A DNA stretch of 6,890 nt, from NCBI GenBank assembly GCA_003132865.1, contig PKYZ01000150.1:1-6890 (forward strand), written 5' to 3'. The position numbers and the translations under genes were made by a program. Positions 1-4,343 of this stretch are shown one piece after another. This DNA is from Bryobacterales bacterium (lineage in GTDB: Bacteria; Acidobacteriota; Terriglobia; Bryobacterales; Bryobacteraceae). The notes under the pieces are model-generated. The model was not told the DNA's origin. It searched no databases and was given only the letters and a program-made list of their open reading frames with translations. How positions within the stretch are numbered: position 1 is the stretch's first letter; every line of letters begins with the position of its first letter.

Positions 1-27
1 CCGCCGCAGGCCGAGGGCCTGCCCCAC
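1..27 (-). repeat. Lead module of the GTGGGG hairpin repeat, cut by the window edge
   Basis: On the minus strand this stretch begins GTGGGGCAG and folds into a perfect 7-bp hairpin, GCAGGCC / GGCCTGC with a 3-nt loop (positions 22-16 and 12-6), followed by GGCGG at the edge. It has the same GTGGGGCAG lead, the same hairpin placement and the same CTGCGG trailer as the modules at 3454-3501 and 3504-3551. It starts 9 nt beyond the P1 helix of the RNase P RNA, so it lies directly downstream of that RNA. It could also act as the stem of a terminator, but any T-run would be outside the window. Confidence 0.7.
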
Positions 28-36
28 GTATTTGCA

Positions 37-411
37 GCCTGCCGGATTATAAGCCGGTTTCTGTACCCTTACGGGCGGCAGCCATTCATCTGGGCCGGAC
101 ATTGCTGCCCGGCTCTAGCGACCTACCCGAGAGTTCATCGGAGCGGGCCGCTCCTCCTCTCCTATTTGGTCTTGCTCCGCGTGGGGTTTGCCCTGCCAGC
201 CGGATTGCTCCGTCCGCGGTGCGCTCTTGCCGCACCATTTCACCCTTACCCGAAGGCCGTGCGCTTGCGCGCCCGGATCGGGCGGTATACTTTCTGTTGC
301 ACTTTCCGTAAGGATTCCGTCGCCAGAACCCTTCCCGGCCGTTAGCCGGCACGCTGCCCTGTGGAGACCGGACTTTCCTCCCGTTTCCGGGCGGCTGCCC
401 ATCCGGCAGGC
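37..411 (-). ncRNA. rnpB: RNase P RNA, bacterial class A
   Basis: This is the catalytic RNA of RNase P, which removes 5' leaders from tRNA precursors together with the small protein RnpA. Read on the minus strand, it shows the universally conserved core: GAGGAAAGTCCGG (380-368), the GGTAAGGGTGAAA stretch, AGAGCGCACCGC, the L15 region with GGCAAACCCC and GGAGCAAGACCAAATA, AGATGAATG (91-83), and the 3' ACAGAAACCGGCTTAT (64-49). The ends were set by P1: 401-411 and 37-47 are exactly complementary over 11 bp, giving about 375 nt, the usual size for this class. A few unpaired nucleotides at either end may belong to the mature RNA. It is transcribed away from the large surface-protein gene and has its own promoter just upstream. 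Open reading frames crossing it on either strand are spurious. Confidence 0.97.
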
Positions 412-585: not shown

Positions 586-3297
586 ATGATAAAACAACTG
601 GCGGCAATAGGCGCAATCGGAGTGTTTTCGACGTGCCTGTTCGCTCAGGGCTTGAACACAAGCCAAACCAAAGATCAATGGGAAGAGATCAACTTCGAAT
701 TCAATTCTTCCATCCTCTCGGACGGATATCCGAGCCTCTTGCGGCTGGCCGAGATGTTGAGCCAGCATCGCGATTACCACGTGAAGCTGGTCGGAAACAC
801 CGACTACGTGGGCTCCGCGCGTTACAACGACCGCCTGGCGATGCGGCGCGCCGAAACCGTTCGCGAATTTCTGGTGAAATACGGAGCCGCGGCTGACCAG
901 GTCTCGACGGCCGGCGACGGCAAGAACGATCCGGAAGTCAACAACAAGACCAAGGAAGGCCGGTTCTTGAACCGCCGCGTGGTCTTGACCGTCACCGACG
1001 GCCAAGGCAAGATCGTAGCCGCCGGCGGAGCGACGGAGGTGATGCCCACACTGTCGGAGCTTCTCAAGAAGCAGGAGGAGTGCTGCGCCACCATCCTGAA
1101 GCGGCTCGACAAGCTGGAGGATATTCTCGCGGCGTTGCGCGATATCAAGGGCGAGAACGACCGGCTGAAGGGCCAGGTGGCCGAGCTCCAGAACCAGGAG
1201 AAGGCGCTGGAGGACAAAGTCAACGGTATGCCGAAGCCGCTATCGAAGGACGAGACTACTGTTATCGCTGAAAAGGCGGGCACGGACGCTTTGAACGAGG
1301 CGCAGACCCGCAACAAGAAGTTCTCGCTGTTGGGCCTCGACGTTGGTCCTACGATGGGCAACCGGCCGTCGGGCGACGTCACTATCCAGGGCAGAGGCCA
1401 GTTCTTCTCGCCATTTGGCGGCGACGGCTCACACGCTGTGCAGGCGGAAGCCGAGTACATGCGCTATCCCGGCCGTCAGGAAGGCCAGTTCGACATCGGT
1501 CTGGTCAACCGTTGGGATCACCTGCAGGCGGGCTTGTTCTCCAGCTTCAAGTACATCCGGTTCGGCGAGTATGAAAATGGCGGCAGCATGGGGCAGGGCG
1601 CTTTCCTGCTCGATTACCTCTTCAGCCGCGGCCGGATCGGTTTCTACGGAACGGAAGGCTTCAAGAATACCGGCGCGCTCACCGAAACGCCGCTGGGCCT
1701 GACGTCATTCATCGAAACCTACGCGCGCCCCATGAACCAGCTCGGCTTCAACACGCAGGTGGGTGCCTGGGGCGACGCCTGGATTCAAGGCAACTTCGGC
1801 TATATTCATAGCCACAGTTCCACGCCGAACCGCCCAGGGGGCGAGATCAAACTCGTGCAGCCCTTAAGCAAGGAATTCGCTTTCACCGTCCGCGCGGGCC
1901 TGAACTCCACCCTGCTGACAGCCAAGAATACCGGCGAACTCACGTTCGGGTTGGAATTCGGCAACTTCATGCGGCCGAAAGAATACACGACCTTCACGCA
2001 TCCGGTCCCCATGGACGTGCCGCGCATCCGGTATGAGTTCCTGACGCGCCAGGTGGGCCACAGCGCGCCCGTGGCCGACGCAGGTCCGGCTCAGATCGGC
2101 GTGCCGCCCGGCACCATCACCCTGAACGGCAGTGGCTCCTATAGCCCGGATCACGATGCTCTGAACTACTCATGGACCCAGGTTTCCGGTCCTAACGTGG
2201 CAATATCCAGCGCCAATGCGGCCATCGCCACATTCACCGCGGCGGGCTCCACCAGCTACGGCTTCCGCCTGACCGTTACCGATCAGTTGACTGGCCTGAC
2301 CGCCAGTGCTAACACCACCGTGACCACGCAGAGAGCTCTGCAAGTGGTGCGGTTCTCGGCGACTCCCAGCCAGATAGCCGCGGGACAGTCGTCCACCCTG
2401 GCCTGGAACGTGACCAACGCGACCTCGGTCAGCATCTCGGGCGTCGGCTCGGGTCTCAATGCGCAAGGCACCGCGACCGTGTCGCCGACCCAGACCACTA
2501 CCTATAACTTGACCGCCACCGGGGCGGGAGGCCAGTCGATCACCGCAAGCGTTACCGTTACCGTCGGCGCGTCCAAGCCCGCTATCGTACGCTTCACAGC
2601 CGCGCCGACCAATATCAACCAGGGCCAGTCTTCGCTTCTGTCCTGGACGACCACCGGCGCCAGCACCGTCACTATCAACAACGGAGTGGGCACCGTGCCC
2701 GCGAACGGCAGCAAGAGCGTTTCGCCGTCCACAACCACTACATACACCCTGACGGCCACAGGCGCCGATGGGGTCACCGCGGTTACCGCCGCCGTCACCG
2801 TTACCGTGGGTGGCGGAGCGGTGCCGGGCATCCTTAGCTTTACGGCTTCGCCGACGGTCATCGTTGCAGGTGGCCAATCGTCGCTCTGCTGGAACGTGAC
2901 CAATGCTCAGACAGTCAGCATCGCGCCTGGACTTGGTAATGAGCCCTTGGTTGGCTGCACGACCGTCACACCGGCCGCAACCACTACCTACGTGCTAACG
3001 GCTACCAACGCCGTTGGCCCAATCCAAGCCGTCGTAACAGTGAGCGTGGGAGCCGTTCAGATCCTCACGTTCTCTGCCAATCCGGCTTACTCGCCGGCTT
3101 CCGGAGCGCCCGTAGTCTTGTCGTGGACGACCCAGAACGCCACTTCCGTAACCATTACCGGCACGGGCGTACCCGCCGGAGCTCAGTCCGTCAACGGCAG
3201 CGTCACCGTGAATCCGACCACCAACTCGGATTACACGTTGACCGCTTACGGTCCAGGTGGGCCGGTATCCTCCGTGATCCACGTGTTCGTGAGATAA
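586..3297 (+). CDS. Exported OmpA-like / coiled-coil / barrel / PKD / Ig-repeat surface protein (903 aa)
   Basis: I recognise the domains but not a named gene. Residues 1-20 form a signal peptide with a likely cut after LFA. Residues about 34-136 are an OmpA-like peptidoglycan-binding domain; D73 (in NTDYVG) and R88 (in AMRRAE) lie 15 apart, like the meso-diaminopimelate-binding Asp and Arg known in OmpA. Residues about 156-212 are a charged heptad-like coiled coil containing the pair C166-C167. Residues about 246-475 are rich in Gly and aromatic residues in alternating strands, suggesting an outer-membrane beta-barrel (inferred). Residues about 494-581 resemble a PKD domain (APVADAG start, SYSPDHDALNYSW core). 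Four Ig-like repeats fill about 586-903. The likely role is a surface or adhesin-type protein anchored to peptidoglycan. It is monocistronic, with its own ribosome binding site and terminator. OmpA domains are usually C-terminal, so this order is unusual. Confidence 0.9.
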   Translation: MIKQLAAIGAIGVFSTCLFAQGLNTSQTKDQWEEINFEFNSSILSDGYPSLLRLAEMLSQHRDYHVKLVGNTDYVGSARYNDRLAMRRAETVREFLVKYGAAADQVSTAGDGKNDPEVNNKTKEGRFLNRRVVLTVTDGQGKIVAAGGATEVMPTLSELLKKQEECCATILKRLDKLEDILAALRDIKGENDRLKGQVAELQNQEKALEDKVNGMPKPLSKDETTVIAEKAGTDALNEAQTRNKKFSLLGLDVGPTMGNRPSGDVTIQGRGQFFSPFGGDGSHAVQAEAEYMRYPGRQEGQFDIGLVNRWDHLQAGLFSSFKYIRFGEYENGGSMGQGAFLLDYLFSRGRIGFYGTEGFKNTGALTETPLGLTSFIETYARPMNQLGFNTQVGAWGDAWIQGNFGYIHSHSSTPNRPGGEIKLVQPLSKEFAFTVRAGLNSTLLTAKNTGELTFGLEFGNFMRPKEYTTFTHPVPMDVPRIRYEFLTRQVGHSAPVADAGPAQIGVPPGTITLNGSGSYSPDHDALNYSWTQVSGPNVAISSANAAIATFTAAGSTSYGFRLTVTDQLTGLTASANTTVTTQRALQVVRFSATPSQIAAGQSSTLAWNVTNATSVSISGVGSGLNAQGTATVSPTQTTTYNLTATGAGGQSITASVTVTVGASKPAIVRFTAAPTNINQGQSSLLSWTTTGASTVTINNGVGTVPANGSKSVSPSTTTTYTLTATGADGVTAVTAAVTVTVGGGAVPGILSFTASPTVIVAGGQSSLCWNVTNAQTVSIAPGLGNEPLVGCTTVTPAATTTYVLTATNAVGPIQAVVTVSVGAVQILTFSANPAYSPASGAPVVLSWTTQNATSVTITGTGVPAGAQSVNGSVTVNPTTNSDYTLTAYGPGGPVSSVIHVFVR
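2341..3294 (+). repeat. Four tandem Ig-like repeats within the surface protein
   Basis: The protein-level repeats cover residues about 586-660, 665-741, 748-821 and 825-903. Each has the pattern F-S/T-A-x-P, then a GQSS-like turn, a W-N/T-x-T-x-A-x-S/T-V core, T-V-x-P, T-T-Y-x-L-T-A and a closing V-T-V strand. Unit length is about 75-80 residues. The DNA copies have diverged at many positions, so this is an old domain array and not a recent tandem duplication. Only the third repeat carries cysteines (C768 and C791), placed where a disulfide could join two strands. Confidence 0.85.
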
Positions 3298-3320
3298 CGG
3301 GGCGAAAACACGTAACGACC

Positions 3321-3353
3321 AGCCGGGCGGCTAACCACCGCCCGGCTTTTTTT
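3321..3353 (+). terminator. Rho-independent terminator of the surface-protein gene
   Basis: AGCCGGGCGG (3321-3330) pairs perfectly with CCGCCCGGCT (3338-3347) around a 7-nt loop and is followed by seven T (3347-3353). It lies 23 nt after the stop codon of the large gene, the expected place. It is separate from the hairpin repeat further on. Confidence 0.93.
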
Positions 3354-3413
3354 GCATAGTTAGGTTAGTTTAGGGCCTGACCCGGCTCGAAGTGGGGCAG
3401 GCAGTCCCTGCCC

Positions 3414-3452
3414 AATGACACTTAGTCTTCCCATCTTGAGCAAAGTGTTATT
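3414..3452. repeat. Central inverted repeat of the composite element
   Basis: AATGACACTT (3414-3423) and AAGTGTTATT (3443-3452) pair over 10 positions, nine of them Watson-Crick and one a G-T wobble, around a 19-nt AT-richer loop. It joins the left GTGGGG module (3392-3413) to unit 1 (from 3454), so those two modules would sit at the base of one stem. Confidence 0.55.
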
Positions 3453-3453
3453 C

Positions 3454-3501
3454 GTGGGGTAGGACTCCCGTCCTGCGGCCGACGTCCACGTCGGCGTTTC
3501 C
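3454..3501 (+). repeat. Two-hairpin repeat unit 1
   Basis: This is a 48-nt unit beginning GTGGGGTAG. Hairpin 1 pairs unit positions 6-12 with 17-23 (one G-T wobble) around TCCC. Hairpin 2 pairs 25-31 with 36-42 around TCCA. The two loops are exactly 19 nt apart. It aligns without gaps to unit 2, 30 of 48 identical by hand count, with the differences concentrated in the stems. Confidence 0.75.
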
Positions 3502-3503
3502 GA

Positions 3504-3551
3504 GAAGAGCGGGTCCTGGAGGACCCCCGCAGACCTGGAGGTCTGCCCCAC
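3504..3551 (-). repeat. Two-hairpin repeat unit 2, facing unit 1
   Basis: Read on the minus strand, it begins GTGGGGCAG at 3551. Hairpin 1 pairs unit positions 6-12 with 17-23 around TCCA, and hairpin 2 pairs 26-31 with 36-41 around TCCA, with the same 19-nt loop spacing as unit 1. It starts 3 nt after the stop codon of the ABC ATPase gene, so the operon transcript would enter it first. It has no T-run, so it is not a classical terminator. Confidence 0.75.
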
Positions 3552-3554
3552 AAG

Positions 3555-4343
3555 CTACCAGAGATGGTAGTAGTCATCCCGCTGGGTCAGATCGACCGGC
3601 AGGCCGAACAAGCCCGCGAGCGCCGTGGCTGTAAGCACATCCTGTTTGCGCCCGTCCGCCACGATGCGGCCCTCGCGCATCAGAATCACGCGATCGATTT
3701 CGGGAATGATATCGGCCAAGTGGTGCGTCACGAGAATGATTCCAATCTCCGCGCGCGCCAGCTTGCGCATGGTCTCGCGCAATTCGTGCTGCGCAAAAAC
3801 ATCCAGGCTGTTGCTGGGCTCGTCCAGCACCAGCGCGCGGGGATCGTGCACCAGCGCGCGCGCCAGCAACACGCGCCGCGCTTCCCCCGACGACATCTCC
3901 GTTAGGGTCCGCTCCGCCAGATGCGGAATTTCGAGCAGCGCCAGGATCGCGGCCGTTTGGCGCTCGATTTCCGGCGTAATGCGATGGTAAGGCTGCACGC
4001 CGACGCTGCCGAAGAAGCCGGATAGCACCGCCTCGCGCCCGGTGATCTCGCGCGTGCACAGTGCCATCCAGTCGTTGGAGACCACTCCCAGCAGCGGACG
4101 GAGATCGAAGATGTTCCAGCGCTCCTGTCCGAAGATGGCCATGCGCGACCCCTCGCGCACCAGCGGATAGCATTCCCGCGCGATGGTCTTGATGAGCGTG
4201 GATTTGCCGCACCCGTTGGGACCCAGGATGGCGACGTGCTCGCCCACACCTATGCGCAGGCTCACATCGCGCAGCACGATCTTTTCGCCGCGCATCACGC
4301 AGACGCGCTCCAGTTCGATGAGCGGGCGCTGGTCAGATGGCAC
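3555..4343 (-). CDS. Soluble ABC-type ATPase of the ModF/YlmA kind
   Basis: This 262-aa protein is a single ABC nucleotide-binding domain. Walker A is GPNGCGKST (41-49, K47), the signature is SSGEARRVLLARAL (151-164), Walker B is ALVLDEP (170-176; D174, E175), the D-loop is SLD (179-181) and the switch His is H207. The signature has SSGE instead of LSGGQ, and LGVVSND (85-91) stands where most transport ATPases have the Q-loop Gln; I recall similar changes in ModF/YlmA-type proteins. No permease or binding protein is in the window, so a transport role is unproven and the substrate unknown. Translation appears to start at GTG, with a GGAGGAG site 10 nt upstream; no better in-frame start precedes it. 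The start overlaps the end of the alcohol dehydrogenase gene by 11 bp, indicating translational coupling as the last gene of the operon. Confidence 0.9.
   Translation of the reverse strand: MPSDQRPLIELERVCVMRGEKIVLRDVSLRIGVGEHVAILGPNGCGKSTLIKTIARECYPLVREGSRMAIFGQERWNIFDLRPLLGVVSNDWMALCTREITGREAVLSGFFGSVGVQPYHRITPEIERQTAAILALLEIPHLAERTLTEMSSGEARRVLLARALVHDPRALVLDEPSNSLDVFAQHELRETMRKLARAEIGIILVTHHLADIIPEIDRVILMREGRIVADGRKQDVLTATALAGLFGLPVDLTQRDDYYHLW

Follow-up and report, generated by a model that had tools for sequence, protein, structure and literature searches.

The window, by which we mean the whole 6,890-nucleotide stretch of Bryobacterales DNA analysed here, contains an RNase P RNA match (34-410, minus strand), a gene ending at 3297 that we take, from its translation, to encode an OmpA-like protein, and a minus-strand gene with its stop at 3555 that presumably encodes an ABC-transporter ATPase (this name, too, comes from the translation). 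A terminator (3321-3347) follows the OmpA-like gene. The element studied here, a facing pair of two-hairpin units, ends 3 nt from the ATPase gene, next to a hairpin repeat of another kind, and a further unit of this two-hairpin kind, with a different loop type, is truncated at the left edge of the window:

1..27, minus strand: truncated two-hairpin unit with ctc loop, running off the window edge, GTGGG GCAGGCC ctc GGCCTGC GGCGG...
3392..3452, plus strand: adjacent hairpin repeat, different in kind, GTGGGGCAGGCAGTCCCTGCCC, followed by the arms AATGACACTT...AAGTGTTATT
3454..3496, plus strand: left two-hairpin unit (foot, hairpin 1, hairpin 2)
3454-3458, plus strand: foot of the left unit, GTGGG
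3459-3476, plus strand: hairpin 1 of the left unit, stem GTAGGAC/GTCCTGC with one T-G, loop TCCC
3477-3496, plus strand: hairpin 2 of the left unit, stem GGCCGACG/CGTCGGCG, loop TCCA, outermost pair unformed
3497..3508, no strand: spacer separating the facing units
3509..3551, minus strand: right two-hairpin unit, inverted
3551-3547, minus strand: foot of the right unit, GTGGG
3546-3529, minus strand: hairpin 1 of the right unit, stem GCAGACC/GGTCTGC, loop TCCA
3528-3509, minus strand: hairpin 2 of the right unit, stem GGGGGTCC/GGACCCGC, loop TCCA, one mismatch

Both window units begin with GTGGG beside a palindrome, the arrangement of a REP with its 5′ GT[AG]G, and 3454-3551 as a whole has the two inverted REPs and the short hairpin-capable spacer of a REPIN. 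A sequence-only reading of this DNA had described two units with covarying stems at a common loop spacing, and we could reproduce its description: 3454-3501 (plus strand) and 3551-3504 (minus strand) align without gaps over 48 positions with 30 identities, both partners are switched at six pairs (10:19 GC/AT, 11:18 AT/CG, 26:41 CG/GC, 27:40 CG/GC, 29:38 AT/TA, and 31:36 GC/CG), all of which are Watson-Crick in both units, and in either unit the first loop opens at position 13 and the second at 32, a spacing of 19. At 7:22 one unit has T-G where the other has C-G, and 25:42 is unpaired in the minus-strand unit. Our strict two-hairpin finder returns 2 units in the intergenic region of the window, compared with one unit in 1 and two units in 0 of 2000 dinucleotide shuffles of this region; 200 shuffles of the whole window likewise yielded one unit in 1 and two units in 0. 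A terminator had been discounted by the same reading, rightly so: a scan of 3250-3650 gives only 3321-3347 and the antisense 3339-3314, and no intrinsic terminator (a G+C hairpin followed by a T-run) is present at 3454-3551.

The closest relative that we found is a Bryobacterales MAG (locus L001, genome G001; 94% protein identity, and 87% DNA identity over 2.27 kb), whose intergenic region differs from that of the window. The RNase P RNA match has its 3′ end 6 nt before the start of the edge unit, and the repeat at 3392-3452 resembles the loci L010, L026, and L039 of genome G006.

Copies in related genomes

The repeat is widespread within a single group of soil bacteria. R1, a model of the repeat that was trained on both window units and recovers these by construction, matches 63 of 150 genomes sampled in the closest relative's family, with at least 42 matches in 11 of the 150. 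Across a phylum sample, with 32 candidates scored per genome, it matches 3/199 genomes, G001 included, which makes rarity beyond the group a tentative statement at most. A pattern scan is positive in 60/150 genomes, reaching a maximum of 252 places in one genome (one place in the backward control). The edge unit at 1-27, which lies outside the R1 training rows and whose match is cut by the window edge, scores 24.6 bits and is of the same type as copies in G001. Raw counts from the strict finder, with the reversed-foot control in brackets, are 25 in 400 kb for G026 (1), 23 in 321 kb for G001 (0), 15 in 297 kb for G069 (0), 7 in 297 kb for G036 (1), 0 in 160 kb for G130 (0), and 0 in 37 kb for G055 (0), with one G069 row and one G036 row that look like chance. 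Outside the window, 14 facing pairs occur among 95 units, one being a unit that overlaps itself, and 44/94 units lie outside called ORFs by crude gene calls.

In genome G026 one facing element is a dispersed repeat of ~126 bp, present in 42 distinct copies, some full and some partial, and the spacer in many non-coding copies is about 40 nt long. Loop types detected by the strict finder in G001 are tcca, tcta, and ccct, and also ctc, atcc, and atct; the 25 units in 400 kb of G026 have loops of the families atcc with ttc, ttca, or ttta, ccct, and ggt, ggc, or gtc. Stems vary among G026 units inside one loop family, and the window stems GGCCGACG and GCAGACC as well as the right arm GGACCCGC are also found in the G026 ccct family. 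The foot, GTGGG in the window, is GTAGG, GTGGC, or GGAGG elsewhere. In five G026 copies of the facing element (L287, L288, L289, L295, and L306), one end carries a GGAGG or GAAGG foot and the opposite end CCTCC; L288 lies roughly 270 bp away from a gene for a different kind of Y1 transposase (G026:C45:50513-50851).

Comparison of G026 loci with the sister genome G091 revealed no insertion or excision. Eleven gaps were compared, five of which contain repeat hairpins (a, b, d, g, k) and three other DNA (f, h, i), while the remaining ones (c, e, j) adjoin N runs in G091; only gap a is nearly clean (97 bp versus 1 bp in G091). We rejected the absence of the L107 copy from G091 as a case of an empty site, since 187 bp are missing, with GCTA ends and, by reading, seemingly through a start codon, which makes a deletion in G091 likelier. 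Repeat hairpins in DNA shared with G091 amount to 0/12 in the searched stretches of L106, L107, and L112 (one chance-looking hairpin is shared, and four more hairpins of L107 lie outside the searched part), and thus we found no shared copy in which a stem could be traced in place. At L112 (G026, 7663-7854), 192 bp with inverted ends like TTTCACCGCAGAGACGCGGAG, a repeat of another type, are missing from G091.

Covariation of the stems

The window feature is a repeat, and its stems covary. For a first set, 28 contexts were selected solely on the letters of foot and loop; hairpin 1 pairs at 6 or 7 of 7 positions in 25/28 contexts, and hairpin 2 at 7 or 8 of 8 in 24/28. Removal of three of the 28 rows (two register-shifted, one duplicate) left a 25-row alignment, one likely chance row being retained, in which 94.9% of the cells are paired compared with 74.6% after shuffling and two-sided changes are seen at 14/15 pairs. 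The covariation score of this alignment is 0.513 (0.154 shuffled, at most 0.112 slid; reached by 0/500 shuffles), and per-pair sums amount to 66 two-sided versus 6 one-sided changes. We collected a second set from G026 by BLAST homology, removing 6/48 copies as duplicates and 14/84 unit ends that had no recognisable foot. Its 52 distinct units are paired at 86.7% of 780 cells (69.7% shuffled, at most 43.7% slid), the 104 unpaired cells being partly the result of small indels that put units out of register, and show 126 two-sided and 17 one-sided changes (53 and 32 when shuffled). The sequence-only reading had called for further copies in relatives and for covariation among them as a sign of selection on a folded strand; such copies exist, and their covariation above the shuffled and slid controls supports that selection.

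The two ends of one element often differ. Copies with poorly paired ends were excluded from these comparisons (20 copies form the in-register set, 19 plus the window the folding set, and 23 plus the window the end comparison). Left and right stems are the same in 0 of the 20 G026 copies with both ends in register for hairpin 2 and in 5 for hairpin 1, and in the 23 copies, which were chosen to have at least 11 pairs per end, the ends share only 0.55 of their hairpin 2 stem letters, with each end pairing at 14.5/15.

Two-sided changes far outnumber one-sided changes in both sets, as would also result from a copying process that regenerates palindromes (template switching or fold-back synthesis), which rewrites one arm so that matched blocks change with no selection on the fold. 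We consider such a process unlikely. At least one non-Watson-Crick pair is present in 18/40 distinct in-register G026 units, 7 of the odd pairs being A-C; mismatches thus arise and persist, and palindrome regeneration is not needed. Moreover, it would not protect the feet and loops, yet both are nearly constant across the G026 copies.

Odd pairs that are G-T more often than A-C would identify the foot strand. The count is 51 versus 8 in the raw data and 41 versus 8 in distinct hairpins, but the excess shrinks to 14 versus 8 when collapsed (p 0.29) and to 8 versus 7 in the G026 copies, and we therefore set the ratio aside as proof of strand. When whole elements were folded as DNA (20 elements), the foot and hairpin 1 mostly paired across the element, foot to foot, with mean local hairpin probabilities of 0.05 (left) and 0.13 (right) for hairpin 1, and of 0.77 and 0.63 for hairpin 2. 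A clover fold forced by the unequal ends was not borne out by these calculations.

RAYT genes between like units

RAYT genes (encoding HUH-type Y1 REP-associated tyrosine transposases) are found between like units. A protein encoded between two facing units (L094) has matches in 63/150 genomes and, judged by its sequence, is an HUH-Y1 enzyme related to TnpA-REP. The HUH motif is present in 88/90 RAYT proteins and Y...NP in 81/90, and a PDB search returned TnpA-REP (4er8; E 1.3e-4) as the sole match at E 0.001, whereas the two proteins scanned with NCBIfam REP_Tyr_transpos scored 76.9 and 69.5 bits, both below the cut-off of 80. The genes between like units combine the HUH motif, the catalytic tyrosine, and the TnpA-REP similarity that define a RAYT. 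Around 90 RAYT genes, the strict finder, which required a GT[AG]G foot at these loci, detected two-hairpin units at both ends in 28 cases, at one end in 27, and at neither in 35. In RAYT-bearing elements the transposase gene sits between the units, with 5′ units starting 72-121 nt ahead of the gene match in 35/41 and 3′ units beginning 28-83 nt past it in 38/42. Five RAYT genes (L182, L183, L202, L207, and L230) have a 3′ unit and no 5′ unit that we could find. Single-hairpin units became visible on looser inspection at L269, L252, and L242, which belong to a clade without two-hairpin units. A hairpin repeat, GTGGGGCAGGCGCTTCCGCCTGC, is common in G042, G098, and G143 and perhaps belongs to a RAYT clade with single-hairpin neighbours (L242, L252).

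With RAYT presence called at E 1e-20, 46 of the 150 genomes have both a RAYT and R1 matches, 17 a RAYT only, 17 R1 only, and 70 neither (odds ratio 11, p 6e-11, kinship ignored); a RAYT is thus absent at this threshold from 17/63 genomes with R1. The window holds none (best tblastn E 0.49). A strict tcca unit was found at 0/90 RAYT loci, related ccct-type loops at 8, and the loose finder identified one RAYT locus with a tcca unit (L220). G001 has four RAYT matches, and the loop type of the window is absent from the three that we inspected (atct, none, ctc).

Unit type tracks the RAYT tree. The types sort with branches of SH-aLRT 99 (atcc), 97 (ttca), 94 (GTGGC/ctcg), 93 (gtc), and 85 (ccct), on a tree that is weak overall, 14/87 inner branches being starred and 46 open. 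Foot base 5, the loops, and the closing pairs all take fewer changes than in any of 500 shuffles: foot base 5 requires 5 changes (lowest shuffle 12), the closing base of hairpin 1 nine (lowest shuffle 19), and the first base of loop 1 fourteen (lowest shuffle 22). Several stem bases also track the tree, for example the second base of hairpin 2, with 11 changes against 18 in the lowest shuffle. Foot base 3, at 7 changes and a shuffle mean of 7.7, shows no such signal, and thus the tree test does not set foot and loop apart. Counts of 60 and 67 two-sided changes on the tree were discarded as circular for pairing, the units having been preselected for perfect pairing. The loops, described as fixed in the sequence-only reading, are so within one repeat family, but they differ between RAYT clades.

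A structured regulatory RNA or 3′-end element, with its hairpins selected in transcripts, appears quite improbable to us. The window copy does lie 3 nt from the end of the ABC gene, and intergenic units are found in convergent gaps in 22/41 cases compared with 135/534 gaps of at least 100 bp (crude gene calls), but inserts that avoid promoters would likewise favour such gaps. The element has no Rfam match at gathering scores and no T-run, its copies differ between sister genomes, and like units are located at the ends of transposase genes. Chance, or common ancestry of two palindromes without a pairing constraint, might be entertained for the two related sequences of the window alone, but the window shuffles and the shuffled and slid controls on the further copies render it negligible.

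Candidate mechanism and known systems

The feature is probably a non-autonomous, REPIN-like mobile element whose stems drift under a shape-reading RAYT acting in trans. Because the facing pair is a dispersed repeat in G026 and like units lie at RAYT gene ends, the element is MITE-like, so the earlier statement that no simple MITE explains it is only half right. We envisage two inverted two-hairpin REP units, each made of a foot followed by two short hairpins. The RAYT would bind the single-stranded foot strand and read the foot and loops, the stems needing mainly to be paired. A stem mutation would be kept only together with a change in its partner, and the stems would consequently drift by compensated changes. 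The repeat is probably moved by a transposase that recognises hairpin shape and ends; we infer that this enzyme is the RAYT, that selection would act on single-stranded DNA, and that recognition in this element would be of foot and loop.

According to PMC8266576, the foot matters to RAYTs, as do loop bases for REPs with perfect stems, and the loop and upper stem of an E. coli REP can be swapped. Variation of the stem letters at constant pairing, feet, and loops fits this published recognition of foot and loop. More tentatively, RAYT clades of this group might read a shape code made up of a foot base together with the loop letters and loop-closing pair of both tandem hairpins, with most of the 15 stem pairs free but complementary; we would not favour this extension at present, since stem bases also track the RAYT tree. 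If it were true, one genome would carry many letter-different, shape-equal substrates, and RAYT clades would diverge by loop and foot change.

REP/REPIN-RAYT systems (REPtrons) share with our element the GT[AG]G foot, the palindrome, inverted doublets, many copies in a genome (as in G026), and, for the kind as a whole, a RAYT gene between two inverted copies. In contrast to REPtrons, each unit here has two tandem hairpins, and stem letters differ within a genome and between the ends of an element, feet and loops of a family being constant. TIRtrons (TIRYT; PMC3733652) also place a Y1 transposase between inverted repeats, in part double palindromic, and include a sharply defined acidobacterial group, whereas the repeats described here are high-copy and covarying. 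The TIRtron motif GGGGWSAS is by reading absent from the window units, which give GGGGTAGG and GGGGCAGA. TnpA-Y1 class 3 (PMC6006769) shares with our element an acidobacterial host and high-copy secondary structures beside a Y1 transposase, ~600 copies with a CnGA foot having been noted in Solibacter usitatus in 2018. The class 3 Y motif is YV[VI]xEQ as opposed to mostly YIExNP here, and in place of a CnGA foot we find GTGG in the window and GTGG or GTAG at RAYT loci with strict units. TnpA-REP subclass 2.4, from the same paper, is similar in its NHxH motif, a Y motif near YIxNNP, the GT[AG]G foot, and WQ, which is present in two RAYT proteins read; its published REPs are single long or double-foot hairpins.

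Compensated REP stems and double-palindrome transposase ends are already known: preserved REP palindromy was taken to suggest selection for complementary mutations in 2010 (PMC2817692), compensatory changes were noted in REPINs in 2011 (PMC3116915), and double palindromic ends of Y1 transposase genes together with an acidobacterial enzyme group were reported in 2013 (PMC3733652). In the open-licence literature searched, we recognised no description of the repeat in this group, nor did we find a two-hairpin REP with stems so variable within a single genome. In these copies, a REP-like substrate has undergone a natural mutational scan, with letter-different paired stems, near-constant feet and loops, and RAYT genes in the same genomes, so that one can directly test whether a RAYT reads foot, loop, shape, or letters. 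The finding also adds to the repeat types by which genomes in one Acidobacteriota group are shaped.
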